This document shows positions 5,588 through 28,726 of a stretch of DNA of 64,000 bases, one piece after another (within the stretch, counting starts at the first letter, position 1; every line of letters begins with the position of its first letter). The notes below the pieces were generated by a model. The model searched no databases. It was not told where the DNA came from and saw only the letters and a list, made by a program, of their open reading frames with translations. The translations under genes were made by a program, and so were the position numbers. This DNA comes from Rhizoclosmatium globosum (lineage: Eukaryota; Chytridiomycota; Chytridiomycetes; Chytridiales; Chytriomycetaceae), in the NCBI GenBank assembly GCA_002104985.1, contig MCGO01000060.1, forward strand, positions 1 to 64,000, read 5' to 3'.

Positions 5588-5658
5588 AGGGATAGTCTCT
5601 TTTGTTGGTTTACTTTGTTTTTTCTTTTTGCAATTCAACCAAACGCAATAGTTCTGAA
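5588..5658. promoter_or_regulatory. Bidirectional promoter, mS34/IMP4
   Basis: This 71-bp spacer separates divergent start codons. It is strongly T-rich on the plus strand and contains TTTGTTGGTTTACTTTG. A closely similar string, TTTTGTTGGTTTTGTTTAC, lies in the SEC31/cardiolipin synthase spacer. No TATA box is apparent. A promoter role is inferred from position only. Confidence 0.45.
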
Positions 5659-7059: not shown

Positions 7060-9029
7060 TTACTTTCTGGTACGCTGTCGCTTAGCTGGGGCCGAGCTCT
7101 CTGATGCTGTTCTAGTAGATCCCGCGATAGAAGAGGATGAAGATGAGGCAGCAGGCGGTGCTGGGGTCAGAGATGGTGGAGTAGACACAGGTGCATTCAA
7201 ACTTGACAGTGAAAAAGTACCGTCTGGAGACTCTCTTGTACTCCATAAATCACTTGGCATATCAAGTCCCATGATATCTGTGAGGGACTCTGCCTTGATT
7301 CCATCCGACTCGTTTCCATCATCAAACCCACCAAACCCTCCACTGCCACCGAGACCACCAAACAACGTTGATTCAATTCCTTGACCTGCAGCAGCGATTC
7401 CTTCGTTGAATTGAAGTCCGTTCTGTTTTTAAGTTTTAGTTTTTTGAGTTTGACGGGAGGAAACGATAAAGGAGTCGTCGATGCTAAATCCTCGCATTCT
7501 TCCTTCAAGTCCCAGATCTTCATTCCAACGAAATACAAAGAAACACACACCTCTTCATACAAGTCACGTAACCGCTTCTTGTTGTTATCAGCACCATCCT
7601 TTTGATCAATTTCCTGACGCAACATTTGAATTTCCATTTCGTATTCTTTTTAGGTAACATTGTTAGTATGCATCCTATAAATTAAAGGCGAGATGGTCAA
7701 AAAGAAGGAGGCACCCCCACATGTTGGGCTGATTAGATAAGACTTCTTCCCTCAACCGTCAAATCCGCGGCATGGATATTCGCATTCGCACGAATACAAA
7801 CAAGAGGATCTTTGTTGGGCTCACTACTACCCTTGTTTCGTCTGACGACAATGATCTCCGCTCAGACTCATAGCTTCGCCACACAATTCACTTTGAAAAA
7901 GGATGTTCCCTTCGCTCATATTTCAATGGCTTCTCCTGATGGCGACGAGCTCAGCTAGTGACGTCACTACCAATTCACTTCATAAAAGGATGTTCGCTAC
8001 GCCAACTGCTTAAACATGGCAAACTCCATTCTCTCTTCCTCTCGTGAATTAAAACTGAAGCCACCAATATTCACATCCAGACGCATAAAAAGAGTGGCAT
8101 CAAAAGTGCCATTGTCAATATCTATCTAATCTCATGGGAGGAGCAAAGCATCAACAGTGTGACAAACCTTGAAGACGCCTCTCCAATAAAGACACTTTAT
8201 CGGACAACTGTTTCGTAGTCTGTTCCATCATTTGTTGCTTCTCCTTCTTCTTCGCTCTGAAACGAGCGGAGGCAGCAGTGTTACGACGACGCTTATCCAG
8301 TTCTGATTCCGTCTTTTCAGAGGCCGGTTTAGGGCCAGTTGAGGAGGCCGTTCGAGGTTGAGCTGAAGCAGAAGAAGAAGAAGGAACTGGAGGAGGCAGA
8401 ATGGGAGGCAGAGGAGATGGGTAGTAAGGTTGGGCAAGCATAGGCATCATAGGAGTCGCCGCCATCATTGGATTCATAGGATTCCCGAGGGCAGCGAGGA
8501 AGGACTGGTTCGCAAGCAGAGACGATGCCAGGATCGCCTGTTGAGTGGCAATGGCCATCTGAGACACAGTCATGTCACCGACGTGGTTGATGTTGTTGAT
8601 GTTGTTTGCAGCATTGTTGTTACTAATAGTGTTCTGCGCACCGGCCGAGTTCGAGTTCGCAGTTTCAGTTGAGGCGCCTGAGAAGCCGCGGAGACCCGCA
8701 AGGTCGTCGAGGTCGTCGAGTTCGAGTTGCTCCTCAGAAAGTCCCTCGAGCATCAGCGACGACAACTGAAGCCACTCATCGGCTTTGTTCGAAGTGTTCG
8801 TGTTGGCGTTCGAGCCTGACCCGCTTCCGCTTCCGCTTCCACTCGATTGATACTGGTCCATCGATAACTTTTTGAAGGTGAAACGTTTTGGACCAGCTGA
8901 AAAATTTGTGGGATTCATCTCGATTTCGAATTGCGACATCATCGGAATCCTCGATTCTTGCTGATTGCTGCGCTTCCGAGGTTGCATGGATGCTACTCGG
9001 CTATTTCGCTGCTCCTTAACCCTCCTCAT
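7060..9029 (-). CDS. bZIP transcription factor (Cys-3/Met4-type basic region)
   Basis: Three exons, about 438 residues. Exon 1 holds a Ser-Gly repeat (SGSGSGSGS), an acidic segment (EEQLELDDLDDLAGL), Asn-rich and Pro-rich stretches, then the basic region KRRRNTAASARFRAKKKEK. NTAASARFR matches the Nxx(A)(A)xx(C/S)R signature. The leucine zipper is interrupted by a 522-nt intron (7646-8167). Splicing joins LERRLQ to EYEMEIQMLRQEID and keeps the heptads in phase. Exon 3 is Gly, Ser and Pro rich and ends KRQRTRK, a possible nuclear signal. The basic region resembles fungal sulphur-metabolism regulators, but target genes cannot be told from sequence. Retention of the intron would stop translation five codons into it and delete half the zipper. 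Confidence 0.86.
7646..8167 (-). repeat. Intron of bZIP gene carrying degenerate copies of the intronic hairpin repeat
   Basis: The intron has a GTTTGT donor and a TACTAAC-like branch site about 20 nt before the acceptor. Between about 7800 and 8020 it contains diverged pieces of the repeat also seen in four other introns of this window, such as GGCGACGAGCTCAGCT and GTTCGCTACGCCAACTGC (plus-strand text). On the transcribed (minus) strand they read in the same sense as in the other genes. These are the most decayed copies in the window. Confidence 0.65.
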
Positions 9030-9356
9030 TCGCTGGTATTTTTAGATGCACCAGTTTGAAACACTCTATAACTGCTATTCCGTCAGAAGTACTCTCATTC
9101 ATCATACAACATTCAAAAACTCAACTTATGAGTGAAATAAAACTTGGACAATTTATTGCGCGTATGGGCAGTCTCTTGTGTACTTTCAAAAATTCTTCAA
9201 GTGATCGACATAGATACTTCTAGATTTTAATCATTGCGTATTGTAAGCTAGATATGCTTGGATCGATGTGAGTATATAGCGTACTTTTGGTTTCTTGTTT
9301 GGTGAGATTCTCTTTCTTTTTTTTTCTAAGTCCTGAAAGAACAACCAACCAACAAA
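9030..9356. promoter_or_regulatory. Divergent spacer between bZIP and RRS1
   Basis: This 327-bp gene-free spacer lies between divergent start codons. It holds a T-tract (CTTTCTTTTTTTTTCTAAG) about 25 bp before the RRS1 start and a TATATAG-like string near 9274. Nothing coding is seen. Promoter function is inferred from position. Confidence 0.4.
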
Positions 9357-10589
9357 ATGGACCTTGACCCAGGATCCCTCGCTGTCTTTGACACGGCAGC
9401 CGTTCACATCAACGCAACCACAAAAGCATCTGCGATCGAATCAATCCTCCAAGAACGAACAACCGCGGCTGTCCAAGCCCTCTTTGACGTTGTCTTTGCC
9501 CTCCCAGTCGAAGCCACAGACAACAACGGTGTCCTCGCGAAACTACCTAAACCAACCTCAAAACTGCCTCGTGCTCTTCCAGTCCCTTAAGCGACCAACT
9601 CACCACTCGTTGGGAAAAGTTTGCTAAAGAGAAGGGCATCATGAAAAAGAAGAAACAAAGACGTGTCTTTGATGAGGAAAGTGGGAAATATAAGGTCCGT
9701 TATGGGTATGATGAAAAGAAGGATAAGGATGCTGTTCCGGAGGATTGGTTGATTGAAGTCAAGAATTCTCGTGCTCCTTCTAAAGGTGCTGGATTCCAAG
9801 CTGGTGAGTGTGTATGTTTGTGCATGTCAGAGTACACAAAGCAGTTGCGGAATTGGATCAGCAGGAGCATTTATGAGAGTTACAAGAGTGCGAACAGACG
9901 AGAGTACGAGCGGAGCTCGTTGCCTTCAGAAAAAGTCTTGAACGTAGTGAGCACAGTGAACTGTGTAGTGAGGCAACGAGCGGAACTTGTTGCCATCTGT
10001 CGAAATCATACACAAACGAAGTGTTCATGAGAAAACCCCCCCAATCCACACAACATACAATTTAACATAAATACTTTGTAGATGCCGACACAGACGCATA
10101 CACCCAACGCAACGCCGACAAGCGTAAACGTGTCGCCAAAAACAAATCCCAACAACGTCGTAACCAGCTCGAAAACCCTCGTTCTGGACTTACCCCGAAA
10201 GAAGCGCGTGCAGCTCACTTGAAGGCTCAACTCAAGGACGCGAGAACAAGTACCGCTTCTATTGGTCGATTCGATAAAACTGTGAAGGGAGAAGACCAAG
10301 TCAAGTTTAAGCGTGCAAAGAGAAAGTTTGACGATGTTACTGGAAGTGCGGATTCTGAGAGGGATAAGCTCCGTAAGGTTGTTGGAGGGGTCAACAAGAA
10401 GGTGAATGCGGATGGTGGAATTATTGCAACCAAGGTATTGTCTCTACTACCCAGCACTTGCTTTTGGAATCGTAACTAATATGATACTTTTTTACAACAC
10501 AGGCTGTCTCACAAATCGCCCAATCCTCAAAGAAACCGAGTGCAAAGAAAACTGTCGATAAGAAATCATTCCGCAAGAACAAAAAGTAA
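9357..10589 (+). CDS. RRS1: RRS1, regulator of ribosome biogenesis (one apparent frame break)
   Basis: About 295 residues from three exons. Exon 1 gives the helical N-terminus and KLPRALPVP, then WEKFAKEKGI, KKKKQRRVFDEESGKYKVRYGY and DWLIEVK, the RRS1 signature. Exon 2 gives DADTDAYTQRNADKRKRVAKN and a Lys/Arg-rich tail; exon 3 ends KKSFRKNKK. RRS1 acts with RPF2 to load the 5S RNP onto pre-60S particles in the nucleolus. At 9584-9586 the frame breaks: one more C in the CCC run would join PVP to LSDQLTTRWEKF without a gap. As the gene is normally essential and the rest is intact, a sequence error is more likely than a mutation. Intron 1 (9804-10081) carries the intronic repeat. Confidence 0.92.
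9804..10081 (+). repeat. Intron of RRS1 with copies of the intronic hairpin repeat
   Basis: This is a 278-nt intron with GTGAGT donor and TTTGTAG acceptor. At about 9899-9990 it contains GAGAGTACGAGCGGAGCTCG and a diverged second unit ending CGAGCGGAACTTGTTGCC. The text is in the sense orientation. The other RRS1 intron, without the repeat, is only about 67 nt. Confidence 0.75.
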
Positions 10590-10761
10590 AAAGTCTCCAA
10601 TAAAACGCGAAATCATTCCAATCACTACAGTTTGAATCTCAAAATAAGCGGAATTTATTATGTGCACTGTTCCGTCACAAAACGAATGAAATAAACTCCA
10701 AAAACCCAAATCCATCATCACCCACCCAATCGTAAAACACGGTCATTCCTTCACGTTTAAC

Positions 10762-13700
10762 TTAGTAGCCATACTGTTGGTTTCCTCCGTATGGGTTTGA
10801 AGCGGCAGGTGGTGGAGCTCCTCCGTAAGGGTTGGACGCAGCAGGTGGAGGAGGCATTGCTGCAACAGGTGGTCGCCCGTATGGGTTTGACGCCGCTGGC
10901 GGTGGTGGTGCGGCAGCACCTCCGTATGGAGCAGTAGCTGCTGGAGGTGGCGCTACTCCTCCATATGGTTGCGATGGCGTTTGTTGTGGCGAAAAGACGC
11001 CTCGAGCAGACGGTGGTGGAGCGGCTCCGTAAGGACTAGTACCGGCGGCTGGAGGTGGTGGAATATTCGCTGATCCTCCGTATGGGGCAGTGGAAGCTGG
11101 GGGAGGAGGAGCTTGTTGGTATTGGTTGGCAGCCGGAGGTGGGGCAACATTGTTGTATTGGTTTGCTGACGGGGTGGTGCGCTCCGTACGGTTTAGCGGC
11201 TGGAGGAGGTGCATTTCCGTATGGGTTTGTTGCTGCAGGAGGAGCATTACCGTATGGACTGGCAGTCGCGGCAGGTGGTGGAGGAAGTTGATTCGCCCGA
11301 GGAGGTTGAGTGGCGTAAGCTGATGGAGGTGGCGCGGCCGCGGCTGGAAGAGGTTGTTGATGAGCTTGTTGCTTGTCGAGTTCCGCACGTTCCAGTGTGT
11401 CAATCACCCTCTTGACTCCAAGAATCCACGCTGACGTTGCCGAAAATTTAGCAGTCAATAGCTCAACTTGCAGTTTGTGAGCGGCTGAATAATCTCCAGA
11501 TTGCAAATCTGATTCGAATAGAGTTTTAGAACCAACTGGAAAGAAAACAAAATAATTACATTTAACAAGCGACAACAGCTTTGCAACAATGTCCTCAGCG
11601 ACTTCGCCGTTATTTAATTGATCGAATAAGTTCAAAACCTTCTTCTCCGTGTCTTCCCATTCTCGCTTTTGTTGAGGCTGTGAAAAACAGAGTCAGCTGT
11701 CCATCCATATCCATCACAAATCGAGGAAAAAACAGTACCTGAGTTTTTGTTTCCTTGCAAACATTCATTACAGCATCTAATCCTGTGACAATTGGCAAAT
11801 GAGCAGGCTTGATATGAGTTCTATCTCCAGAAGCTGTAATGCAAGCGTTAAGTCGCATAAAATAATAATAAAATACGATCTTACGATGACGCTTTGGACC
11901 AGTCGCGACAGCTGGAGCTGGAGCAGCCGTTGGTTGTGGTGGAACTGACGCACTTGGCGCAGGTGCAGGGAATCCAGCAAACGAGTTACTTGGGCCAGTT
12001 TGTCCCAGCATTTGTGGTTGTGGCGCAATGTATTGCCCAGATTGTGACACACTTCTACCAGCTACAGCAGGTGGTGGCACAAACCCGCTTGCCGCTGGAG
12101 GAGAGCTGGCGCACTATTGTAAGTGTTTCCATATTGATTACTTTGAGCGCCATAGGTTTGTGCGCTTGGTGGAAGTGGTGGGCGTATTGGTTGGAAGCTC
12201 CATATGGCTGTGCTGGGAGACCTGTGTTGACAGCTGGTGGAGGTGGAGGTGCGAATGTAGATCGAGGTGGAGCTGCAGGTTGTGGGTTGTACCCATATTC
12301 TACGCGAAGTAAGCATTGATTATGAGAGATAAATAAACATACGCTGAGTTTGGGCTTGTGGTTGTCCGTACGCAGAAGTCGCTCCACCATATGGTGATGG
12401 TGAGGATATTGGCCATATTGGTTCGCACAGTGGCTCCATATTGCCCTGATGAGCTTGGGTATCTTCCAAGTCCCTGAGGAACGGCTGGGGTCTGATACTG
12501 AGTCTGGTTTCCATACTGTTGTTGAGTTTGTTGGCCATACTGCTGTTGTCCATATTGAGAATAAGTTTGAGCCACAGGAACAGGTGCGGGAACGACTGGC
12601 TTCGCAATATCCACAAACTCGAAGGGGAATGCAGGTTGTTGCCCAATAGCGTCACGCACAAGTCCACTGTTGTACAAACGGTCCTTCAAAATCTCAACAG
12701 CAACCGGATCCGCCTTTGGAATTTGATAGCCCTCAGGAACCATTTGCAGTGTCTTCCAAGCGACACTCAAAGTCCCTGGTTTGCCGCAATTTGAGCATAC
12801 TCGACATATCGCTGATACAGTGTGTCAAGCGAGTAGTGTGTGGCATTAGGGTCTTGAACTCCGTGAACAAGCTCCACATCAACAAACTCTATCGCCTGAC
12901 GGAAAACATGAACCTTCTCAATCAAACTCTGAAGGGCAAGAGTATGCGAAGATTTGGTTGAGGTCAACAAAGTCTTGGCGTTCTTGACAGTCTTCAACAA
13001 CTTCTCCTCCTCTGATTCACGGAGCGCCCAGATATTCAAAACCTTGGTCAAGTCTCCACAACAAGGTAACAGAGAACCGCGCCAAACTTTTTCTCTTCCC
13101 GTGCTTTCCAGTCAATAGTCTTTAAACTAGCGCCACTGCAGGAGCAGTAGCAATCGCCTCCAATCGACGACCCAAAGCACTGAACAACCCAGCCAACTCT
13201 TCAGTCCGTCCATACGTGCAAATCAAGGCCAACAGGTCCTTCCAATCCGCATCTCCGCCATCAATCTGGGCATTCTCGACAATATCAACCAAATTGCCTT
13301 GAACAACATCGTTCAACACACGGATGTAACTCTTTTCATTTCTGAGACGCTTAAAGTACTCGGCCTGCGCGTATGCCATGAGTTCGCTTCCTCCACTGAT
13401 AGCAAACACGAGGGCGTCAGCGAGACGGTTAGCACCGAAACAGATGCGGACTGCAGTTTCAAAGTTTCCAAGGACCAAAGCTTTAGTGATCAGCGCGTCA
13501 GTGTCGCTCGATTCTCCTGGAATAGAAGAGTACAATTTGAATGGGACAGCTGGAGCTGGAGCTGGGGCCGGTGGAGCAGCCTTGTTCTGAGCCGCAATCA
13601 AAGTGAAATCATCACCTTCGACAGCACCTTCACCATTTGCATCGCCGTGGTATTGATCCTGCACCGCCGCAGGAACTCCTTCAACCTGCTCCTCTTGCTG

Positions 13701-16145
13701 CACCTCCGTAGAAATCAACAACTTTTTCAAAAGAGCCGCCAACTTCTCAGTCCCCGCAACTTCAGCTTTATCAAACCCAAGGAACTGCAACACTTGTTCA
13801 CGGCTCCCCGTCTCAAACATGACACCCAAGAATCTCCACAACTCACGATCCTTCTCGGAAATCACAGCTCCACCGTCGGATTGCGCCATTGACTGACAAT
13901 ACGTGATAAACTCTTGGATAGCGCCTGTTGAATCTACGCGCTCGAGTTCTGCTGCTCGGTTGACAAAGGCAGGTTCACTGACAACGGGGCGGATGGACAC
14001 AGTGTGTCGGGAAGTACCATCGGGTAACCGTGCGTTTGAGAAACGAACGAGACGGTTTCCGAAGCCCCATGAAGCACCCACAGGTCTTCGCAACCACTTT
14101 GGCGCATGCGGAAGTGAGAATTTCGAGTCTACTACTTGAGTAGTTTGTGGCTGTGGTTGTAAACTTCCGAATCCACCACCTGTAATGAACGCGTGTGGGT
14201 CCTGACTCAAGGAGGCTTGTACTTCGGCTTCAATTGCGGCGGCGGCGGCAGTTCCATCATCGGACTTTCCGGATCCTTGTAAGCTGTGAACACTGATGGT
14301 TCCATCAAATCCAGCAACAGCGATTAAGTCTGGGTTTCGGTGACACCATTGTGCCTCGAAACTCCAGTTTCTGCTGCGATGCAAGTCTCCAATGACTTTT
14401 CCTTCAGGGCCTGAGCTAGGGTCCCAAACGATTGTACGGTTATCTTTTCCACAACTGAGGAGGAGACTGCTGTCTTTGGGGCACCAAGACAGGTTAAGGA
14501 CACCCTTTGAGTGACCGGTGAGAACTTTTTCGGGGGCGCGCGAGTTTCTGAGATCCCACATGAGGATGACAGGGGCAGTGTCGTCATCACTGGCTGTTGC
14601 GATTTGTGTTGGCTGAAGGTTTGTTGGAGTATTAGTTTCCTTGATATTTCCTAACAAGGTAACATACGGAATCAGGGTTCCATGCAAGACTAGAAATCTG
14701 CTTGCGACCGTATGGGTGAGAAAAGGCAGCGATTTCTTGACGGTTTCGCAAGTCCCAGATAACAGTGCTTCCGTTGTTTGAAGCCGAAGCCAAAATGTAA
14801 TGATATAATCTGTTCCATGAGACTGCCGTAACATCTTCCAGACGAGTTGAACGAGCTCCTGGGGAGTATGGTTTTGATGGGTTGGTCAAGTCCCAAATGA
14901 AGAGCTATTGTGATGATTTAATCTCGATATTCTCTAGGGATTTAAGGGCACGAGTTTCGCATGACGGGCTTTGCGCTTGAAAGGGAGTTCGCTTTGCTCA
15001 CTATTTTCTATGGTTTCGCCTGAAGGTAACGAGCTCCGCTTGTGGACTCGTTTCGCAAGTTTTCCTTGTCGCACTATTTGCTACGCGAAACCATGTTCGC
15101 TGCGCTCACTTTGATCCAGCTTCGCCTGACGGTAACGAGTTCCGCTCGTGCTCTCGCTTCACAAGTCTTCTTGGAACACAATTCGCTTCGCGAAAGCAAG
15201 TTCGCTGCGCTCACTAACAATTAGCTTCGCCTGACGGCAACGAGCTCCGCTTGCTCTCGCTGCGCAAGTTTTCCTTATTGCACTATTCGCGTAGCGAAGA
15301 CATGTTCGCTGCGCTCACTTTGATCCAGCTTCGCTCGCCTGACGGCCAAGGTGAACTCGCTACGCAATTCACTTCGTGAAAGCAAGTTCGCTTCGCTCAC
15401 TAACAATTAGCTTCGCCTGACGGCAACGAGCTCCGCTCGTGCTCTCGCTTCACAAGTCTTCTTGGAACACAATTCACTTCGTGAAAGCCAGTTCGCTTCG
15501 CTCACTAACAATTAGCTTCGGCTTACGGCAACGAGCTCCGCTCGTGCTCTCGCTTGCGCATGTCACTTCGAAAGTCGTAGTATGCCATGTCACAATTTCG
15601 TTACCTCTCCATCAGCAGCACCGGAGGCAAGAAACTTTGAATCGACCGGATTAAAATCCAGGCCTTTGACAGGACCTTTATGTTTGACGGGTTTCATGAT
15701 GAAAGGGTCATGTGAGGCCTTGTTGGAGTAGTTGTCAAGAATGATGCGGGGATCCCAGAGCGCCATTTCACCGTTTTCGAGACCACCGGCCAAGATACCC
15801 ATTGGACGTTTGACCGGGTCAGGCGAGGGACCCCAAGCGAGGCGGTTAAATCTGTATTGAGAGACAGAGAGTGGGAGTCAGTCAATAAATTGGGGGTAGA
15901 TGCACCAAGTCGCCTGTCAAACAAACACAACAAACAGAGTCAAGTAGTTACCTCGCAGCAGCAGCAACCGAGCCCAGTACTTTAAAGTCTTTGAGCGGGT
16001 CGAGTAGTTCGAGTGTTGTCGAAGTAGAAAACGAGGCATCGAGGGCGCCGGCAACAGTCGCCGCGGCAAGAAGAGGCGTGCCAATCGAGGACACGGACGG
16101 CGACCACGCGATCGTCGAAGTGCGATCGGTTGACCCAAGAAGCAT
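10762..16145 (-). CDS. SEC31: SEC31, COPII outer-coat protein (several apparent frame breaks)
   Basis: The start MLLGSTDRTSTIAWSPS and following WD40 repeats (LASGAADGE, LFIWDLTNPSKP, ILASASNNGSTVIWDLRN, IATASDDDTAPVILMWDLRN, LLLSCGKDNRTIVWDP) identify SEC31, which forms the outer COPII cage with SEC13 at ER exit sites. Next come the alpha-solenoid region (about 13,122-14,300), Gln/Tyr and Pro-rich segments (about 11,900-12,650) and the C-terminal SRA1-like domain (DRTHIKPAHLPIVTGL to SATSAWILGVKRVI, about 11,390-11,830). Unusually, a second Pro-rich tail of (P)PPAASNPYGG-type repeats follows that domain and ends the protein at GGNQQYGY. Frame breaks near 11,171-11,180, 12,103, 12,180-12,182 and 12,774-12,776 each need one or two extra C/G bases to restore continuous coding. 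A further uncertain break lies near 12,410-12,440. The 700-nt intron at 14,905-15,604 is full of the intronic repeat. Confidence 0.93.
14905..15604 (-). repeat. SEC31 intron filled with about six tandem units of the intronic hairpin repeat
   Basis: This 700-nt intron interrupts the WD40 domain between GAADGE and LFIWDLT. Units marked by TTCGCCTGACGG-like text begin near 15,015, 15,121, 15,226, 15,330, 15,412 and 15,517, a period of about 105 bp with one shorter unit. Each holds the hairpin ACGAGCTCCGCTCGT, a TTCGCTTCGCGAA-type palindrome and TTCGCTGCGCTCACT. On the transcribed strand the order is GAGCACGAGCGGAGCTCGTT, then GCCGTCAGGCGAAGCT, then AGTGAGCGAAGCGAAC. Donor is GTAACG, acceptor AATAG. 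Confidence 0.88.
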
Positions 16146-16196
16146 TCGTTCGTTGGTTGGTTTTTTGTTGGTTTTGTTTACTTTCTCGCAAAGAAC
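16146..16196. promoter_or_regulatory. Bidirectional promoter, SEC31/cardiolipin synthase
   Basis: Only 51 bp separate the two divergent start codons. The spacer is G/T rich on the plus strand (TTGGTTGGTTTTTTGTTGG) and shares TTTGTTGG...TTTACTTT with the mS34/IMP4 spacer. Function is inferred from position. Confidence 0.45.
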
Positions 16197-17709
16197 ATGT
16201 TCCACCTACTAAGAAGACCTGTCTTCCGCGTCATCGCCTCAAATCACCCACTTCAAAGGCGCTTCTTTTCGGCGTCGCTTTCGCTGCGACTGCCGCTGCC
16301 CTCGCCGCCTTCTCCTTCTCCTTCTCCCTCAGTGCTCGCCAACAAAGAAAACATTTACACAATCCCAAACGCAATCACTTTTGCCCGTATCTGTGCATCG
16401 CCTGTCATTGGTTACTACATCTCGGCTCATCAGTACCCTTTGGCTCTCTCTCTGCTTGCCGTCGCCGCTGTCTCAGATGGCCTCGATGGCTTTATTGCTC
16501 GCAGATTCAACATGAAGACTCACTTTGGTACCGTCCTTGATCCCGCCGCTGACAAGATTCTCATGACCGTCCTCACTATTTCTCTTTGTGATGCCGGTCT
16601 TCTTTCGTGTACGTGTCTGTGAAAGTACATAAAGCGGCAGCACGAGCGAATCTGGCGAAGCTAGAAAAGAATAGTGACCGTAGTGGACATTCTTTTACGA
16701 AGTGAATTGTGGAGAGACCATGAACGAAGCGAGAGCACCAGCGGAGCTCGTTGCCTTCAGGCGGAGCTGAGGGAATAGTGAGCGTAGCGAACAGTTTATC
16801 GCGAAGCAAGTACCTAGGATTCATGACGTAACGAGAGCATGGCGTAGCGAGAGCACGAGCGGAGCTCGTTGTTTTCAGGCGGAGCTCAAAGGATAGACGG
16901 AGCTTAGAGAACAGTGAGCGTAGCGAACAGTATTTCGCGAAGCGAGTTTGATTCATGGCGGAACGAGAGCACGAGCGGAGCTCGTTGCCTTCAGGCGGAG
17001 CTGAGGGAATAGTGAGCGTAGCGAACAGTTTATCGCGAAGCAAGTACCTAGGATTCATGACGTAACGAGAGCATGACGTAACGAGAGCATGGCGTAGCGA
17101 GAGCATGGCGTAGCGTGAGCACGAGCGGAGCTCGTTGTTTTCAGCCGGAGCTCAAGGAATGGACAGAGCGCAGAGAACAGTGACCGTTGGGAACAGTATT
17201 TCTTGAAGCGAGCCTGTACAGACGAGACTAGCAACGTATGTAGAAGAAGAAGGGGAGTGGGATTAGAATGGATCAAATTTCCTTGACAGACTCTAAAAAA
17301 CTAACAACCCAAAAAATACAGTTCCTTTGGCTGCGTTAATTATTGGTCGTGATGTCGGTTTGGTCTTGGGTACCATGGTGTACAGATATACTACCCTTCC
17401 AGCACCGGTATGTGGCGCGTATACATACATCAGGATAAATCCGGAAAAACTGATGTAAACTCCAAACAGAAAACATGGTCACGGTATTGGGACGTTTCTC
17501 TACCTTCAGCAGAAGTACATCCACCTTTAATATCAAAAGCGAATACTCTGTTGCAACTGGTTCTCATGTATGGTACTTTGGCTGCTCCTGTCTACGGGGT
17601 TCCTATTGATCATGTTGCTCTCGAACTTTTACGCGCATCCGTTGTCGGAACTACAATTGCTTCAGGTGCCATGTACCTATTTGACAGGAGTCTTGTCAAA
17701 AAGTTATAG
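16197..17709 (+). CDS. CRD1: Cardiolipin synthase (CDP-alcohol phosphatidyltransferase), mitochondrial
   Basis: Three exons, about 246 residues. After a mitochondrial targeting-like N-terminus (MFHLLRRPVFRVIASN, then FFSASLSLRLPLPSPP) comes IPNAITFARICASPVIGYY. The CDP-alcohol transferase motif follows, DGLDGFIARRFNMKTHFGT then VLDPAADK, with all Asp residues of DGxxAR...GxxxDxxxD kept. Then FPLAALIIGRDVGLVLG and SRYWDVSLPSAEVHPPLISK, typical of cardiolipin synthases rather than phosphatidylglycerophosphate synthases. The enzyme joins CDP-diacylglycerol and phosphatidylglycerol in the inner mitochondrial membrane. Intron 1 (16,609-17,321) is 713 nt and packed with the intronic repeat; intron 2 is about 60 nt. 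The frame is intact. Confidence 0.95.
16609..17321 (+). repeat. Cardiolipin synthase intron with four units of the intronic hairpin repeat
   Basis: This is a 713-nt intron, donor GTACGT, acceptor ATACAG. GCGGAGCTCGTTG cores begin at 16,741, 16,859, 16,975 and 17,125. Two unit types alternate: type A reads TTGCCTTCAGGCGGAGCTGA, type B TTGTTTTCAGGCGGAGCTCA, giving A-B-A-B. Between 17,057 and 17,117 a small tandem run of ACGAGAGCATGRCGTA-like text occurs. The sense orientation matches the copies in other genes. Confidence 0.88.
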
Positions 17710-17940
17710 AGACGTTTAGACACTGATTTTGGATGGAATATTATTATGGCTCACTGGAAGCCCTGCTCAGGTCATCTATGTTTCATTATGACAGTTTTTG
17801 CTCTTCCACAGGACTGGCATTCTTCTGGCATCGACTTATTTACAAAGTATATAAATCAACCAAAGTATTTTTTACATGTCTGGATCCCATTCATTTACTG
17901 TATTACTCTCCAAAACAACAAACTCCCTTCTCTTTCAGCC

Positions 17941-20900: not shown

Positions 20901-21916
20901 ATACCTAATGTTTGGTTCACTGAACCGTCTTACTGTTTCGCTGCAAACTGAACATTGGCAAGTGTCTCTGTTATGTCCTTGTATCGTTTCGTTATATGCT
21001 CAAGATCGTCTTCAAGTTGTTTCTGAGTACTAGAATGTTGTTTCTCCATGGCAGTTATTGTTGAATCGTGTTCTGCTTTCATTCGCTCCATCTCTCGTTG
21101 AAGTGTTTGCTGTTGATCATTCATCTACGTTTTTAAATTAGAGAAAGAAAGGAGAGGAATCTTTTGTATTGCCTGTCGCATCATATTTGAAAGATTCTCT
21201 TTGGCTTGGGTCTGCATATTTTTCATGTCTTCCATCAGTCCTTTTGTTGCCTTCTCATTTTCCTCTTGAAGCTTGTTCATCTATAATTCGTATTATTACT
21301 AAAGCCAAGGGAGATTAGTGGTATTACTTCGGCTTTATGGCGTTCTTTTAATTGGACGTATTTCACTTCCAAATTTTGTTCACTTTCGAGTTGTTGAGAT
21401 CTAGAGAGTTCTTGCATTTCTCTAAGGTTTGATTCTATAGCTGAAGTAGTTTTCCTTGAATTCGATTAGCCGATGGGGTTATTGCAAACAGATAAAAATA
21501 CATTTCCATATGTTCCATTTCTTGTTTAAGCGTTTCTTCGCGATTGTAGCAAGTTCGCAGTTCTTCTTCTTTCGACTCGATTGTTTTTACGTATTGCTAT
21601 CGAAATTCATAAAATCATGGTGAAAAGGAGTTTGATCAACACCAAATCCACACCTGAATTTGTTTCTCAGCTTCAATAACCTTGGCTTCTGTCATCTCTA
21701 ATCCAAGTTTCAACTCAGTTATCTTGTTGGTTCCATCTTTAATGGCCTTTCAAGGTCGTAAAAGAATAAGAACGTTGGTGATTCTCAAATCAGTAACACC
21801 TCAGTTAGTTCGTCTTCATACGCGTCAATAAGACTCTGAATCTCGACATTATGATCTTCGTTCTTTGTATTGAGATAATAAATGACTTTTGTAAGCTGAG
21901 CAATCTTTTTCGACAT
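17941..21916 (-). CDS. FAM184-family coiled-coil protein
   Basis: Many exons (introns near 50-60 nt) encode roughly 1,000 residues of coiled coil. The N-terminus MSKKIAQLTKVIYYLNTKNE and the C-terminal block YINRESREDDVKKIAELEED then ELSNREANFNKIFN are the two conserved ends of animal FAM184A/B. Between them lie long heptad-rich stretches (for example 19,067-19,465 and 19,684-20,166). A Pro/Ser-rich tail ends at PTHNQSAPAIN. The function of FAM184 is poorly known. The divergent gene 195 bp away is a dynein assembly factor, which supports a flagellar or basal-body role (inference). Exon edges within the central region were not all resolved. Confidence 0.8.
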
Positions 21917-22111
21917 CTTGAACACGACTGTGGCGAGGATATTAGGTTTGAAACTTGGAATATTGCCGATTCCAAACCTTCAGGTGGTGCAAACACCCCC
22001 TTTTCAGAGGGAACTTCGCCCTTTCCGCCCGTTTTAGTTGCGGCTCGGGTTGCTGCCTGTGACATAAGAACTGCTGTTGAATTTGTCGATCTAAAAAACG
22101 AGTTTAAACAA
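21917..22111. promoter_or_regulatory. Divergent spacer, FAM184-like/DNAAF11
   Basis: This 195-bp spacer separates the start codons of two genes expected to act in the flagellum. I see no X-box-like palindrome that I would call, but the sequence is short enough that shared regulation is likely. Function is inferred from position. Confidence 0.4.
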
Positions 22112-23570
22112 ATGCCACAGGACAGACAGCAGAAAATCAGTGAGTATCTCTGAGCATGTTTGAAAATACGCTGATCAAGTTTAGTCACACAGGAGCTCCT
22201 GAGAAGACGCGCTGAGCATAACGATGGAGAGCTGTCAACTCTAAAAGAAGTGACACTACACCAATTCGACATCGAAAAGATTGAGAATCTCGATGTTTAT
22301 TGCCGCCACTTAGAGATCTTATATCTCCAGAACAATCAAATTAACAAGATTGGTGAGTTCGATTGTTTTGCCTCCTAAACTAAATAAACATCAGAGAATC
22401 TCCACAAGCTTAAAGAGCTTCAGTACTTGAATTTAGCTTTAAATAACATCAAGAAGATTGAAAACCTAGAGAAATGCGAGTCTCTGAGGAAGCTGGACTT
22501 GACAGTCAACTTTGTGTCAGACCCCCTTGATTTGGAGTCTTTGAAAGATAACATCATGCTTCGTGACTTGTTCTTAGTTGGAAATCCCTGCACTCAAGTT
22601 GATGGCTATAGAGAGTTTGCCATTGTAACGCTTCCGCAGTTGAAGGTGAGTGTCAGTTTTTAAGAAGAATACTAACTCCAATAGATGCTCGATGGAAAAG
22701 AAATCGAGAAATCTGAACGAATCGCCGCAGCTCAAGTGTATGATACAATCAGAGCGCGTTTGGTGAAAGAAAGGAATGAACGGACGAATACTGAAACAAG
22801 AGAAGAGAATCTACAAACTAAAACTGATCCGACTACTGCCGCCGCCAGGTTTGTGCTCAAAATTAACTTCTGTTTTAATGAAAAGAACTAGTCCTGAAGA
22901 CTTGGAAAAGTTGAAACACGAATTCAAGACGAAGCCCATTCCATACACACCAGAAACGCGACGCCAAACTGCAAAAGAAATCGAAACCATGAACGGACCG
23001 CCTCGTGAGGATCCATCAAAATCGAAGCCGCCCAAACCTGCAGACACGACCGTCTCTTATGGCCGTGATGGTCGTGTTCTGCAAAAGAATGAAGGGAAAT
23101 GGGAATTCCACAGGTGGTCCAATGACCTCGCCGTCTTTCTTGATATTGAAATATCCAAGTTTTTGGACTCTTCATTGATAGATGTGAACGTCAAACCCAA
23201 CTACATTCAGGTTGTCATCAAAAACAAGGTTCTCACCGTCACGTTCGACGATGAAGTGAGACCAAACCAAGTGCTGTGCGAAAGAAGCAAGGCTTCAGGA
23301 AACTTGTTGGTTACGATGGTGAAATCGAGTGCACCTAATGATTTGGATGTGGAGGACGTTGCAAAGGCACGACGAACAAAAAATGTCGTCACGCCTGCAT
23401 CCAACGCCCCGACCAATACAGAAAAGAATCGTCGTAAAGAGCGATTGTTTGGAACGATTGATGCAGAAATGCCAAAAAAGATTGTGGACATGAAGTTTGT
23501 TTTTGACAAGAGTATTCCTAGCGCGTCTGAAGAATTCACTGATGATCCTGACGTTCCACCGTTGTGTTGA
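22112..23570 (+). CDS. DNAAF11: Dynein axonemal assembly factor 11 (LRRC6/TilB)
   Basis: About 420 residues in five exons. Exon 1 (MPQDRQQKI) joins [20 protein letters not shown]; then come leucine-rich repeats [34 protein letters not shown] and [11 protein letters not shown], the LRR cap [20 protein letters not shown], and [14 protein letters not shown]-terminal CS/p23-like domain contains [20 protein letters not shown]. This order is diagnostic for DNAAF11, a cytoplasmic co-chaperone for assembling outer and inner dynein arms. The start at 22,112 is the only Met in frame upstream of the first join. It is strong evidence for a motile flagellum. Confidence 0.95.
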
Positions 23571-23619
23571 CAAAATAAAAGAGATGATGGTAAATAGTTA
23601 CTATATTCGCGATTCCAAA

Positions 23620-24446
23620 TCAAAGATTCTCATCTCCGTCGGCAATATTCTGCACAGTCTGGACTTCAACCTGTCCCCTTCCCTTTGTTTCCGCACTCAC
23701 GATTTCAACGAGAGATGGATATTGACCTGGATCCACAGAGCACAAGATTTCATAGACATCCCCAGAAAAGTCTTCATCCTCAATAGCAGCAATGAATGAC
23801 CCAATCTTTTCCTTCAACTTCTTGGATTCTTTTCCGGGAAGGACAATTCGGAGCCGCATTTGAGCACGTGCAATTGGAATGATTTGTTTTTCCTGCAATT
23901 GCTTGATGAGTTCGAGAGCTTGCTGTTTCGCACTCTTATTTGGAGAAATTGAAAAGTGGAGTTCGACCATGGACTTTTCAATAATTGAGACAGGATAAGG
24001 CCGTTTAGTTTGTGGGTTCACACACTTTTGTGATACAATTGTTGCAATCTCCTTTGACATTGACTCGCTTTCTGCAGCACGTTCCTTTTCACCAACTTGC
24101 AGTTCACCCTTTTTGAGGATCTGGAGAGGGAAGGGAATGACGGGTGTGGATCAGTAACCTGTCATCACTTCCAAACAAGTAAACTGACCTCAAGCAGGAT
24201 CTTTTCAACATCGTCTGTCTTGAACGCCTTCGAAAGGTCCTCCTGCGATGCCATTTGACCCTTGGAAACATTCATGTACACTGAGTGGATCTGGAGGACA
24301 TTGTCGATGTCTGTCTCAACACCGGACCGCCATTCTTTGACTTTGTTCTTGTAACAGGCAATCTCAAATCGGATTCCTCCTTTCTTTAACCGAACAATCG
24401 ATACGTTCGTCAGTCGGTTCTGGTTGGATGGCGTGAACACTCTCAT
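23620..24446 (-). CDS. SDO1: SBDS/SDO1 ribosome maturation protein
   Basis: Two exons, about 250 residues, the normal family length. Exon 1 encodes the FYSH domain ([20 protein letters not shown], then [20 protein letters not shown]). Exon 2 gives [39 protein letters not shown] and the C-terminal ferredoxin-like domain. SBDS works with the GTPase EFL1 to release eIF6 from pre-60S subunits in the cytoplasm. The frame is intact. Confidence 0.96.
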
Positions 24447-24657
24447 TTTGTGGATGAAACAAAGAGGAAATGAAAAAGAAAGAAAGAGATCCGTCGTTAA
24501 CCTTCTCAGATATTAAATATCTCAGAATGCAATAGTTTATAAAACGTCAGCCATGCAAAAGCCTGACGAAGAGATTCGGGCAATAGGTGGCTCTGGATTC
24601 GAAATCCTCCACGCCAAGAGACACAAGCACAACGTTTTGGATTCAAAAAAACTCATC

Positions 24658-24999
24658 ATGAAAGTATCATCCGCACTTGTATTCCTTGTTTCCGCTGCCA
24701 TTGCCAACGCTGCCCAACTTGTACCTGCTCACAAAATCACCCTTGTGAACGGAATCGCTGGATCAAACTCTCGTAGAAATGTGCAAGACCACCATGATCA
24801 CTGCAGTACCGCCGCAGCCTTGTGCATTAAGCACAGTGAGGAAGTAAACGACGTTCACTTGATTCGCAAGTGTGTCAAAGAAGCCAATATTTGTGAAATG
24901 AAACGGTGCCCTGCTTACAAGGCTTGCGCTCAACCATGTGGAAAGAATTCTGAGTGTATCGTCAGCAAGAAGTGCATCGATCAGCTGCAGCTATGTTGA
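24658..24999 (+). CDS. Small secreted cysteine-rich protein, unknown
   Basis: This single-exon ORF of 113 residues starts MKVSSALVFLVSAAIANAA, a clear signal peptide. The mature part has about ten Cys, mostly in spaced pairs (CSTAAALC, CVKEANIC, CPAYKACAQPC, CIVSKKC), so a disulphide-bonded extracellular protein is expected. The longer ORF start at 24,553 was rejected because it would bury the signal peptide. A TTTATAAAAC string about 120 bp upstream could be a TATA element. I do not recognise the family; no toxin or enzyme motif is visible. Confidence 0.65.
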   Translation: MKVSSALVFLVSAAIANAAQLVPAHKITLVNGIAGSNSRRNVQDHHDHCSTAAALCIKHSEEVNDVHLIRKCVKEANICEMKRCPAYKACAQPCGKNSECIVSKKCIDQLQLC

Positions 25000-25114
25000 G
25001 CTTTTGTATAGAAATGGAATAAAACCAGCTATCGATAGATATTCTTCAAGTAAAATAGAACCATAAGATTAAGTTCGTTTGACATAGTTAAAAAACAAAT
25101 ATGCTGAGAAAGCT

Positions 25115-27397
25115 TCATGGCTTGTCGCCAAGACCAAGTGCATTCGCCATCAAGAAGAACAATTCAGTGTTGTCCATAGTCTTTCTGCAAGAAGTGGCAA
25201 CAGCTCCGTAGCAGTACAAATCAACGGCTTGCAAAGTGTGGACAGTCGTACCACTGGTGATAGGTAAGTTTCCTGGAATTCTGTTCAATCCGGTTCCGCT
25301 GTTGGAGTCGTGTGGATCATTAACGTATACAGCTGAAGCATCCTTAATAATCTTAGTACCATTCACATATCCAACAGCCGGGTTACGAGTCAATGGGTTG
25401 GTTGGAGAAAAGTTGATACCATCACTACTCTGAGTTCCTGGCTCCTTAACCTCAAAGTTCTCAATCATGTTAGGCATATCGACCTTGCCTCCCGCCAATC
25501 TGTATCGAGCAGCAGTAAACTTGGTTGGAAGCCCATTTTCATCCAAAACATTGTCAACCCAACCGGCATCGTTGTACACTTCAATGGCATTACGTTGCTC
25601 AGCTTGCCAGTTGGCTCCAGCTGGTACTGCTCCATTAGGAGTTCCGTCTGCACTGAGGGAATCATCTTGTGTGGCTTTACGGAAATATTCCAAGTCGACA
25701 GATCCATAGACATCGTATCCTTGTGCGTGATCAGCAGTCAAAAAGATTGCGGTGTCCTTAGCAGATGGTAAAGCCTTGACGGCCTTGAGAGTACGGTCCA
25801 ACTCGAGTAAATCAGCCAATCCACGGTCATAGCTAAGAAAATAGGTGTTAATACAAATTAATTATTAAAGTACAGAAACTTACTCCATTGGGTGCATGGA
25901 CTTGTCAACAGCAGCAGCCTCAGATAACAAGAACCATCCGTCAGTACATTTCTTCTCCATAAGCTCAATAGCCTTCAAAGTCATTTGTTCAAGTCCTGGC
26001 TGGTTGTAGGCAGTAGTCTTGTCGAGTTTTGGTGATGAATCAGGGTTGATGGCAAGGGACTTGGTGTTGTAAGCGCGTTCATACCAAGTATCCATGTGTC
26101 CCTTATGGAAAATACCAAGAAGAGGAGCAGAAGTAGCAGCAGCCAAGTCGTTCTTGTCATACGCGACGGCGTATCCAGCAGCAGCAAATGCAGCGTAGTA
26201 GTCAGTTGAGTTCACAGCCAAACTTCCCTTGAACCATTCACCACCACCTCCAAGTAAAACATCTGGCTTGACGGCTGGACCCCATGGCATAGGCTCTCCC
26301 TTTTCAGTCCAGGTGTTGGTAGTTCCGTTCTGTACCAAGTGCTTGAACCCGTTCAACGCCTGATCAACGAGAACTTGCCCTTGACCGCGTTGACGTGTGT
26401 GTCCAAAGAAAGCAGCAGGTGTCGCGTCGACGACTGAAGCTGTGGTTACGATTCCAATACACATGTTGGGACGGGCTCGACGGATAATTTCTGTGATTGT
26501 CTCAACCTTGGCGTCATCCAAATTATCTGAAGAAGTAGTGTCTGCATACACATTCAATGTATTGACCCATCCCTATAAATAGCAGGTTCCAAAATTAACG
26601 TTCAGTCTTTCTAAAAAATTAAATACAGGAAGTACCTTGTGACCAGTAGAGTACGTTGCCGCAGAGTTGGCAGAATCAGTAATAATAGCATCAATTCCAT
26701 TGGTAGAGATTTTACCCATTCCATCCCACTTCTCCATTTCAAGGAACCCATCACCATTCGCAAACTTTCCAAACCGCGTGTTTCGTGAAATGTAACGAGC
26801 CGCCGAGATCATGGTAGGCGCCATACCGTCTCCAACGAAAAGAAGTGTGTTCTTGACCTTACGAGTAGATGAACCCTTGACAACCCACTTTGCGTTCACT
26901 TTTTCACCTCCGGCAGAGACTTGGATGTTGTATTCTCCTGAAGCTGGAAGGGAGAGGTATCGCCATGAAGCACGAGACACGGAGAAGGAAGTCTTTTTCT
27001 TGGCGTCTCTGGATTGAGAGTCCTTGAAATAAGTGGAGTTGTAGACACTGGTGTAAACAGTGGGGACGTTTGCAATTACGTCCTTGACTTGCTTTCCGTT
27101 AATAGTGAAGACGAGGTCAGAAAAGTCTATTGTCTTGAAGGCTTCAGAGTGCCATTCCAAAGCAATGTCGAATTTCTGATTAGTGAGGTTAATAAGTTTG
27201 TTCGTAAAGGAACAACCAAACATCTCAACCTGTCCAGCAAGAAACTCAGAACCATCGACAGGAACCAAAGCAAGGTTCGAGTCACGTGGTAAAGCACGGT
27301 AACGGTGTTGCTGTCCAACTGTAGGAACTGATGGGTCGATAGCAGCAAAGACCCTGGCGGCAGTCGCGGCAATAAGCAACAACGACTGAATCTGCAT
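25115..27397 (-). CDS. Secreted alkaline phosphatase
   Basis: About 720 residues in three exons. A signal peptide (MQIQSLLLIAATAARVFA) is followed by a 190-residue N-terminal domain not present in bacterial enzymes. The alkaline phosphatase core then follows: NTLLFVGDGMAPTMISAARY (first metal site), ITDSANSAATYSTGHK with the nucleophilic Ser, SEAAAVDKSMHPMDYDRG (compare bacterial VEGxxIDKxxH) and FLTADHAQGYDVYG. Metal-site Asp and His residues are kept. The enzyme releases phosphate from extracellular monoesters. Introns of about 60 nt lie near 26,575-26,640 and 25,835-25,880. The frame is intact. Confidence 0.9.
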
Positions 27398-27612
27398 TGG
27401 AAGGAAGTTGTCTGTTTTTGGAAAAGAAGTGATATTCCTGGAAACGCGCTTTTTTGGAAAAAAACTTCGAGAACACGCGCAGTTTTCTAATTCCAGGAAG
27501 TCCACCAATCACAAATTTGAGCTTCATAAAAATCACATAACTATATGATAGCTGGCAACGACTTATTGTGGAACTTAACATTATTATGCAACCAGGTTTA
27601 TTCTTAAAGCGA

Positions 27613-28726
27613 CTAGGGACTCATTTGTTTCTTGAGAGCCTCTTCGAGTTTCTTGAATTCATCTTGTGATTGCTGCTCCAATTCGTCAAATACTTGTTCC
27701 ACGACTGTTACTTCTGGAACGTAGTGCTGTAGAGGAGTATAAATTTAGTAATGCTCAAAACTTCAGTGCTATATTTGACTAGCTCCGCCTGAAGCCACTG
27801 AGCTGTGCTTGTGCCCTCGGCACTCTCGCTACGCAATTTACCTCGCAAAAGAGAGTTCGCTGCGCTCACTTTTTCTTTGGGTTTGTTTGAAAATGACGAG
27901 CTCCGCTCGTACTCTCGCTGCGCCAGAACAATTTCGCTTCGCAATAAATTGTCCACTTCGCTCACTATTCTTGTAGTTTTGCTTGACAGCATTGAGCTCC
28001 ACCAGTAACCACGCTCGGGTATACAACACTAACCATCAACATATTCTCAATACCATTCTTCAAGGTGACAACCGAAGAATCACAAGTCCTACAGGCCCCT
28101 TTCAGTTTCAACAGCACTTTGCCAGTTTCCTCATTGAAGCCCATGAATTCAACATCCCCACCATCGTCCTGGATAGTAGGACGAATACGAGTATCCAAGA
28201 GTTCCTTAATCATGGCAACAGTTTCCGAGTCGTCTGGATGAATGACTGTATCAGCAGGCACGGCTGACGAGGCACCAGAGTCCTGAGCAAGGACTGGTTG
28301 ACCAGAGGAGTAGTGATCCATGATAGAAGCATACAGATCCTGGTAGTAAGTAAACATGTATGATAAGTAAGACAGTAACGTAACCACTCTACTCTACTAC
28401 TCAACAGGCTTCAACAGCGGCCACTCAGCCTCATCCACTTTTGTAACGGTGATAAAGTCCGGGCCCAGAAACACTTCCTTCACGCCGTCAATGCGAAACA
28501 GGCGCTTGGCCAAGGGACTCGCCATCGCCGCGCGGGCCGAAGTGAACTCGATCGTTGTGTTTGCCGATCCAACAACAGCCACGCCCGGACTGAACTTGAG
28601 CGAATTGGCGTTCGGCGTCGGCGCTGTTTGGATGAACAGCGATCGCACGTGCGTCTGTTGGGCTCCTTGGACTTGGACAACGCGGACAACGGGTGGTGCC
28701 CGTGAAAGGAGGCGGTGGGCGAACAT
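27613..28726 (-). CDS. NFU1: NFU1 iron-sulphur cluster scaffold, mitochondrial
   Basis: Three exons, about 247 residues. A mitochondrial targeting-like N-terminus ([20 protein letters not shown]) precedes the Nfu N-domain ([20 protein letters not shown], then [12 protein letters not shown]) and the NifU C-domain ([37 protein letters not shown]) with its CxxC cluster ligand. The last exon gives [18 protein letters not shown]1 delivers 4Fe-4S clusters to lipoate synthase and respiratory complexes. The intron at 27,727-28,033 (307 nt) carries the intronic repeat; the other is about 60 nt. Confidence 0.95.
27727..28033 (-). repeat. NFU1 intron with copies of the intronic hairpin repeat
   Basis: This is a 307-nt intron, donor GTTAGT, acceptor CTACAG. 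On the plus strand about 27,780-28,005 it holds AGCTCCGCCTGAAGCC, GTTCGCTGCGCTCACTTT, ACGAGCTCCGCTCGTACTC and CCACTTCGCTCACTATTC. Read on the transcribed strand these match the orientation seen in SEC31, bZIP, RRS1 and cardiolipin synthase. Confidence 0.8.

Follow-up and report, generated by a model that had tools for sequence, protein, structure and literature searches.

A family of non-coding repeats lies in the sense direction inside the introns of many unrelated genes of Rhizoclosmatium globosum. It is dispersed and locally tandem, occupies the inner part of spliceosomal introns at a distance from either splice site, and seems to have been copied from intron to intron. An earlier note had found the repeat in five introns of the window, by which we mean the whole stretch of 64,000 nucleotides analysed, and had offered an introner with its own splice sites, an RNA structure and the purging of antisense copies as explanations; the bias in placement and orientation stands, the introner ends and the RNA structure are not supported, and for antisense purging the evidence is mixed.

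The repeat in the window and in the genome

All five coordinate pairs in the window (Table 1) delimit GT...AG introns that share related sense repeat units, as described previously, with bZIP, SEC31, and NFU1 on the minus strand and RRS1 and cardiolipin synthase (CLS) on the plus strand. Their lengths of 278-713 nt are indeed unusual against the median of 65 nt for predicted introns, and the alleles of the SEC31 intron measure 963 and 1091 nt. By identity of the SEC31 exon, Chytriomyces sp. MP71 comes closest among named relatives (77% over 19% of the query). The gene finder matched the RRS1, SEC31, and CLS introns exactly. Its NFU1 intron has a different donor in the window (370 nt) but measures 307 nt in allele L039 and 330 nt in L004, and for bZIP the finder preferred an exon, with the sense intron second by 0.5; the spliced bZIP model was made with the intron imposed. 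Pfam domains span the intron junction in CLS (CDP-OH_P_transf, residues 55-212, junction at residue 137) and in RRS1 (RRS1, residues 2-82, junction at 54), while the intron status of bZIP, SEC31, and NFU1 is based on the gene model. The same series of landmarks had been read in every intron; related units do occur in all five, but some introns lack one landmark or another, TTCAGGCGGAGCT being exact in CLS and NFU1 only, SEC31 carrying GTCAGGCGAAGCT in its place, and RRS1 and bZIP having degenerate units only. The label of hairpin-rich applies to short motifs and to nothing beyond them.

Table 1. Host introns of the window, with the repeat blocks and units they contain
Feature	Positions	Strand	Description
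bZIP intron, 522 nt	7646..8167	-	degenerate sense block 7803-8008, no exact core motif
RRS1 intron, 278 nt	9804..10081	+	sense block 9899-10005, no exact core motif
SEC31 intron, 700 nt	14905..15604	-	sense block 14978-15554, ~105-nt tandem units
Typical repeat unit	15458..15554	-	~85-nt consensus GCGAGngcACGAGCGGAgCTCgtTgccnTCAGgCgaAgCnannnnaatAGTGAGCGnAGCGAACatncTtTcgCGAAGcgAaTtg, built on 80 of 111 unit rows, each with coverage of half or more
CLS intron, 713 nt	16609..17321	+	sense block 16633-17212
CLS internal duplication	16725..17089	+	copies 16725-16855 and 16959-17089, 96%
NFU1 intron, 307 nt	27727..28033	-	sense block 27778-28011

Across the 57 Mb assembly, the core motif AGTGAGCGNAGCGAAC has 283 matches at no more than one mismatch (140 and 143), against 2 (2 and 0) for its reversed control, and a second module, ACGAGCGGAGCTCGTT, has 46 and 47 matches against 0 and 2 for its control. 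Sampling used a single motif: 97 of the 99 exact AGTGAGCGNAGCGAAC sites (all except C410:320479 and C412:1354) gave 70 repeat blocks and 39 independent loci in 356 kb of sequence, the count being 39 rather than 38 because L049, whose flanks differ, was counted apart from L048/L024. The exact motif is present in 67 of the 70 blocks (all but those of bZIP, RRS1, and a single CLS allele) and the opposite-strand motif in none, and two repeat-profile searches returned no further copies in the flanks. The ~85-nt unit is common to many unrelated introns and has GCGNAGC cores as its building blocks, with the middle base free in one module. Units stand head to tail, with length variation, as in tandem or satellite repeats; the host genes are diverse, with no common pathway seen among them, and homology together with host-gene identification gives similar introns in unrelated genes, as for introners.

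Placement, orientation and intron ends

With the repeat masked beforehand and each locus represented by a single call, that of its allele of largest margin, a repeat-blind gene finder placed a sense intron at 34 of the 39 independent loci and an antisense intron at none; at the other five the sense intron ranked second, and four of the 39 were called intergenic. Among 240 random non-coding intervals, the same calls were 16 sense, 13 antisense, 23 exon, and 188 intergenic (Fisher p ~3e-26). These gene models are ab initio, come from a finder that used a part of these loci for training, and leave out loci known by coordinates alone (e.g., on C376, C101, C389, C46, and C112). The intron-only and sense-only bias against random insertion noticed in the window thus survives a wider controlled test, and many intergenic or antisense copies, the outcome that would speak against it, were not found in the 39 loci, the four intergenic calls having the sense intron second. 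Gene models for PP2A-C and NDUFS2 align without gaps to solved chains across the element-intron junction; the PP2A model has an extra stretch at residues 39-85, away from the tested junction. We regard it as extremely improbable that the sampling, the one-strand orientation or the ad hoc gene finder produced the pattern as an artefact: the single sampling motif contains stop triplets and the partly circular training and intergenic calls lean that way, whereas the random-interval control, the masking, the protein-level alignment across two introns, and the existence of opposite-strand neighbours count against it.

Unlinked introns have long similar segments in common. Within 38 introns, 261 non-allelic pairs are homologous plus/plus and none plus/minus, and the homology lies almost wholly within the introns. 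The introns of L049 (a DEAD-box gene, minus strand) and L048/L024 (plus strand), 24 kb apart, share ~360 nt at 87% (93% over 170 nt) in a segment that is inverted on the chromosome and sense in both gene models; the pair depends on gene models with margins of 2.6, 5.6, and, for L024, 4.2, and since other copies of the segment at 80-88% exist, donor and recipient are not assignable. Neighbours within 50 kb have a mean similarity rank of 9.3 against 19.5 by chance, over 15 linked pairs that come mostly from the window cluster; in each of the three mutual-best neighbour pairs the two loci lie on opposite strands, and several neighbours have poor ranks (e.g., 16/18, 35/31).

A classical introner or introner-like element, which makes new introns with splice sites that it brings or co-opts at its ends, would yield many similar sense introns in unrelated genes, longer than ordinary introns, as found here. 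Where intron boundaries were called, however, a single one of 1398 HSP ends starts at or before intron base 6, and it begins 140 nt upstream; none ends 10 nt or less from the 3' splice site, and 3' intron ends are no more similar to one another than shuffles. In the 27 introns with called ends, 24-241 nt separate the block from the 5' splice site, and its distance to the 3' splice site is 51-550 nt (the NFU1 block is 22 nt from the 5' splice site with the donor of the earlier note). The intron is present in every allele traceable by coordinates (bZIP, RRS1, L043, L021, L054, L058, and L036) and in the allele of L029, traced in part; no intron-free allele occurs among those followed, which are haplotypes of one assembly. 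Because homology rarely approaches a splice site, and since the intron ends are unrelated, an introner carrying its own ends was rejected as very improbable.

RNA structure, splicing motifs and haplotypes

Fold z-scores against dinucleotide shuffles average +0.19 in sense and +0.40 in antisense, and sense RNA is not more stable than shuffled RNA, with 1 of 38 blocks below z -2. Raw MFE is lower in sense than in antisense in 5/6 introns, a difference lost in the z-scores; the 38 introns of that analysis, which also showed the GCGNAGC cores, include two second alleles. Two-sided stem changes number 2.04 vs 2.13 in H1, 1.62 vs 1.10 (sd 0.97) in H2, 1.48 vs 0.36 (sd 0.56) in H3, and 3.69 vs 2.11 (sd 1.26) in H4. 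Covariation appeared stronger when all 77 unique unit rows were used and is mostly gone with one unit per locus, amounting to at most ~2 sd, a hint; Rfam 15 at gathering score has no matches in the window. An RNA hairpin function, among the candidates proposed earlier, was dropped since the z-scores cancel the raw bias, covariation mostly vanishes, and Rfam gives no match.

CTRAC occurs 0 times in sense blocks and 16 times in antisense, and acceptor-like sites 7 and 25 times; among these counts, sense CTRAC alone departs from shuffles (0 vs 6.0, sd 2.2). These counts weakly support a selective loss of antisense copies, but most short introns lack CTRAC (33 of 182 have it) and plain YAG is more frequent in sense than in antisense (259 vs 70), and purging of antisense copies cannot account for the absence of intergenic copies. 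The 5' splice-site-like GT[AG]AG[TC] is absent from antisense (0) and occurs 81 times in sense, where shuffles have 13.0 (sd 2.8); the sense count is inflated by the sampling motif, which itself contains GTGAGC.

Unit number differs between haplotypes, with allele length differences of, for example, 231, 612, and 196 nt. Haplotype divergence is 5.6% at CpG and 4.1% at non-CpG positions in the cores, and the corresponding values for the remaining intron sequence are 5.6% and 4.3%, from pairs counted in both directions (the counts are thus non-independent) and with the sampling motif excluded save its free base. The L029 allele on C157 has an identical left flank and lacks the exact motif; it was dropped as a presence/absence allele, as it aligns at 92% over query positions 1-350 of 601, repeat included, with the right part unaligned.

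These observations bear on a functional cis-element, in which arrays would help long introns to be recognised, packed or spliced in a regulated manner (acting, e.g., as decoys that resemble 5' splice sites or as binding sites for proteins) and would be kept by selection in sense introns only. We consider it distinctly unlikely. The placement itself would be expected, as would the CTRAC depletion, the asymmetry of substitutions (C>T 32 vs G>A 12 in stem H4, 18 vs 26 in H1; p=0.005), and the presence of the exact motif in all three haplotypes at NFU1 and the groups of L007, L008, L017, L009, and L025, which could reflect constraint. Yet, outside the sampling motif, the cores change as fast as the intron around them, the folding signal is absent, unit number varies between alleles, and the exact motif is missing from other haplotypes at L034, L036, L043, L021, L052, L053, L054, and L058; there is no sign of a sequence-specific function that keeps each copy.

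Copying between introns and known systems

We tentatively favour intron-to-intron copying linked to transcription or RNA. New copies would arise in a way that depends on transcription or on the RNA of introns. Intron RNA might, for example, be reverse-transcribed with template switching, gene conversion being the next step, or RNA-guided repair might act; such a dependence would fix orientation and limit copies to transcribed DNA. Exonic or antisense copies would be purged as they disturb coding or splicing, which would make the inner part of an intron, upstream of its branch region, the safe site. The stronger form of this reading, an intron-internal parasite that moves as a non-coding repeat between introns, invariably in sense, by a route that depends on transcription or RNA, with no splice sites of its own and no copies in untranscribed DNA, strikes us as somewhat doubtful. 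Inverted copying or gene conversion at the DNA level would also be compatible with the local clusters and with neighbours on opposite strands. A DNA-level route with no RNA step, in which introns that already carried sense motifs would share segments through ectopic gene conversion or template switching, is in our view unlikely; the seed could be a local duplication of the 5' splice-site-like GTGAGT, sense and intronic by construction. The excess of GT[AG]AG[TC] in sense, the start of the L036 intron, where a GTGAGT-rich tract leads into the motif, and the mutual-best matches of some neighbouring loci agree with such seeding, but the ~85-nt unit is too long to have been seeded independently in many unrelated introns, and on this reading segments would then have to cross between introns by homology.

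Intron growth and the movement of DNA between introns are an open question. A repeat that is strictly confined to introns and to one orientation, yet has no splice sites itself, sets the lengthening of introns apart from their gain, and haplotype turnover makes the copying process testable. No description of such an intron-internal element was recognised in the literature searched.

Introner-like elements of ascomycete fungi were reportedly described by van der Burgt et al. in 2012, and such elements exceed ordinary introns in length. GNA-loop minihairpin motifs of the form GCGNAGC come from DNA structural work; the repeat units have these cores in common with them, which does not imply folding in vivo. 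As described by Collemare et al. 2015 (PMC4457414), ascomycete introner-like elements likewise comprise many similar introns in unrelated genes; here, by contrast, the splice-site ends are unrelated and the similarity is internal and tandem. According to PMC9860276, fungal introners are gene-biased, have no target-site duplications or inverted repeats, and are interpreted as RNA-based; its DNA-transposon introners are likewise dispersed non-coding intron repeats, whereas here the repeat ends carry no splice sites. The screen described there takes similarity that begins within 5 exonic or 10 intronic bases of both boundaries, judges the two ends later, and filters out interior-only similarity as secondary insertions, and would therefore miss intron-internal repeats like this family. 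Elements of this type may thus be overlooked elsewhere, at least one large introner survey having removed interior-only similarity (PMC9860276), and an intron-internal parasite, if true, would form a class of genomic element that the very design of existing introner screens filters out. Intronic tandem repeats and satellites share the ~105-nt tandem units and the allelic length variation; this family differs from them in having homologous units in many unlinked introns, in one orientation, with none confidently intergenic.

Repeat units and host introns

The window (C378:1-64000, from an assembly of 56.9 Mb in 420 contigs) encodes eukaryotic proteins, and the nearest named matches of its SEC31 exon were chytrids, Kappamyces and Boothiomyces by score and Chytriomyces sp. 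MP71 by identity. The five introns in which the earlier note had described one repeat, always in sense (bZIP, RRS1, SEC31, cardiolipin synthase (CLS) and NFU1), proved to have GT...AG ends at the positions proposed, and all five contained related units in sense orientation. Units were in tandem and ~105 nt each in the SEC31 intron, large duplications were present within the CLS intron, and 80 of 111 unit rows yielded a common core of ~85 nt with four modules, all built on GC-GNA-GC (ACGAGC-GGA-GCTCGT, AGGC-GAA-GCT, GTGAGC-GNA-GCGAAC and TTCGC-GAA-GCGAA). The middle base of GCGNAGC was A 66, G 43, T 39 and C 37 times in 38 introns, two being second alleles. At one fetched locus, L036, a GTGAGT-rich tandem tract opens the intron and continues into the motif; it could be a candidate seed of the repeat out of 5' splice-site sequence.

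The element introns are real at the loci open to testing: spliced models of a PP2A catalytic subunit (L060) and NDUFS2 (L001) aligned gaplessly with solved chains across the element intron (junction residues 213 and 123), and cardiolipin synthase and RRS1 each have a Pfam domain that spans the junction. Host genes were diverse, including Leo1, a cohesin STAG subunit, a DEAD-box helicase, a kinase and a short-chain dehydrogenase. At the SEC31 C-terminus, which holds repeats of its own, the decoded path contains one-base "introns" that point to miscalled bases in the assembly.

Coordinates of paired elements and other features (L, fetched loci; C, contigs of the assembly)
Feature	Location	Strand	Remark
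Divergent pair, bZIP/RRS1	window	minus then plus	
Divergent pair, SEC31/CLS	window	minus then plus	
Divergent pair	L013:3374-3552 and 5392-5600	minus then plus	
Divergent pair	C389:18651/20522	minus then plus	
Divergent pair	C376:96040/98035	minus then plus	
Divergent pair	C101:429141/431443	minus then plus	
Divergent pair	C135:194941/196580	minus then plus	
Element intron, DEAD-box gene	L049	minus	partner L048, 24 kb away
Element intron	L048 (allele L024)	plus	partner L049, 24 kb away
GTGAGT-rich tract	L036:1376-1470		
Identical stretches	C68 and C79 near 252399 / 392907 and 112260 / 533073		100%; third copy ~95-99%
Tandem array	window:36240-37301		143-nt unit, 7.4 copies, 97% alike
SEC31 C-terminal repeats	window:10762-12113		
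One-base "introns"	window:11182, 12114		
Inverted repeat	window:29575-29700		49 nt, spacer 28 nt, 78% complementary; called intergenic

Placement, orientation and position within the intron

With at most one mismatch, the core motif occurred 140 times forward and 143 times reverse in the whole assembly (reversed pattern, 2 and 0), and 60 fetched loci together with the window covered 97 of 99 exact sites. For the gene calls, an exon-intron model learned from the repeat-masked window and L001-L020 scored every possible state of a block by its best gene structure, with a neutral spacer standing in for the block itself. The 70 blocks, of which 67 contained the exact motif and 3 came from the profile only, were called sense intron 57 times, intergenic 9, sense exon 3 and antisense intron once (L045, by a margin of 0.3, its alleles L007 and L022 being called sense by 2.3 and only 0.1); sense intron was the second choice for every intergenic and exon block (9/9 and 3/3).

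Counting intronic against intergenic and sense against antisense copies genome-wide, as the earlier note had suggested, bore out the bias at the sampled loci: when alleles were grouped and the call with the widest margin was taken for each group, 34 of 39 independent loci were sense intron (27 of them by a margin of 3 or more) and none antisense, with four called intergenic (L002, L013, L030 and L005) and one exon (the bZIP intron). Among 240 random non-coding control intervals, 188 were called intergenic and 23 exon, leaving 16 "sense" and 13 "antisense" calls. GCGNAGC density in block-holding introns was 8.94 per kb in sense and 0.18 in antisense; it was 0-0.16 per kb for exons, the remaining introns and intergenic DNA without blocks; ten intergenic stretches with ambiguous blocks were rich in it, as expected from block content. 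Profile searches of 356 kb (window and fetched loci) found no copy outside blocks.

When 38 introns, each with 150 nt flanks, were all compared with one another, 261 non-allelic pairs were similar in plus/plus and none in plus/minus; regions had been oriented by the motif, so what this shows is a common orientation among units. Where intron ends were called, homology began 29 nt or more past the 5' splice site for 99% of 1398 HSP ends (one lay 140 nt upstream) and always stopped at least 42 nt short of the 3' splice site. Intron middles were strongly alike (297 pairs above threshold, 0 in shuffles), the first 80 nt showed a slight excess (3 pairs versus 0), and the last 90 nt were no more alike than shuffles. 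Blocks ended 51-550 nt from the 3' splice site in 27 introns, 10 of which had a branch-like CTRAC 15-25 nt from that site. With homology interior and ends unlike, the splice-site ends belong to the host intron and not to the repeat.

Turnover, copying and origin

Two or three haplotypes are represented in the assembly, with flanks 90-100% alike; identical stretches of C68 and C79 are probably redundant contigs of a partly phased assembly. Intron alleles measured 700, 1091 and 963 nt for SEC31, 713, 597 and 321 nt for CLS, and 612, 231 and 196 nt for L050/L041/L055. NFU1 and the groups of L007, L008, L017, L009 and L025 had the exact motif in each of three haplotypes; it was absent from the other haplotypes found for L034, L036, L043, L021, L052, L053, L054 and L058. 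Haplotype comparison, sampling motif excluded, revealed no site-level purifying selection on GCGNAGC cores, which diverged by 5.6% at CpG (35/629) and 4.1% elsewhere (31/749), similar to the remaining intron sequence (5.6% and 4.3%); for the free middle base the figure was 8.9% (29/326). For the sampled loci, the data establish an intron-confined, sense-only, interior, fast-turning repeat.

Across 15 linked pairs within 50 kb, mostly from the window cluster, the neighbor's mean rank was 9.3 of 39 (19.5 expected), poor ranks included, and the three mutual-best pairs were all on opposite strands. The clearest case of copying between introns is L049 and L048/L024, which have in common ~360 nt at 87% (93% over 170 nt), from ~20 nt past the 5' splice site of L049 up to AGTGAGCGCAGCGAACGACCTT, the 3' parts being unrelated; further copies at 80-88% mean that the pair does not fix the direction. 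The two introns carry the segment in opposite directions along the chromosome, yet by the gene models both copies are in sense; orientation therefore goes with the gene and not with the chromosome. Opposite-strand elements within ~2.5 kb were divergent in 7 of 7 pairs, with no convergent one in partial lists; in three pairs gene models give head-to-head genes, and four rest on element coordinates.

We infer that new copies would come from a transcription- or RNA-linked step, the simplest route to gene-wise orientation and the lack of intergenic copies without a selected function; conversion between introns at the DNA level, or a role in splicing, may instead account for them. The earlier note's RNA structure aiding splicing or export did not hold up in folding: across 38 blocks with 60 dinucleotide shuffles each, mean z was +0.19 for the sense and +0.40 for the antisense strand (p 0.37, Wilcoxon), no gain over shuffles, and stem covariation, one unit per locus, was not clearly beyond shuffles. 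The sole strand-asymmetric sign, a hint, concerned the last stem, with 32 C>T and 12 G>A changes (first stem 18 and 26; p=0.005). The earlier note's further suggestion, that antisense copies are selected out, fits the absence of CTRAC from the sense strand of 39 blocks (shuffles 6.0, sd 2.2; antisense 16, 17.1 predicted from composition); acceptor-like sites numbered 7 in sense (shuffles 9.9, sd 2.9) and 25 in antisense (26.0 predicted), and GT[AG]AG[TC] 81 and 0, a count inflated by the sampling motif. Against it, plain YAG was commoner in sense (259 versus 70), and CTRAC lay within the last 45 nt of just 33 of 182 short introns. With signals so mixed, purging is possible yet weakly supported, and it would leave the missing intergenic copies unexplained.

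Searches confined to one open-access collection of papers turned up no recognised description of this element. An introner bringing its own splice sites, also raised in the earlier note, is contradicted by homology that stays clear of the 3' splice site and by the unlike ends; with similarity interior only, the family falls outside introners as delimited by the boundary criterion in section 15 of PMC9860276, where interior-only similarity is filtered out.
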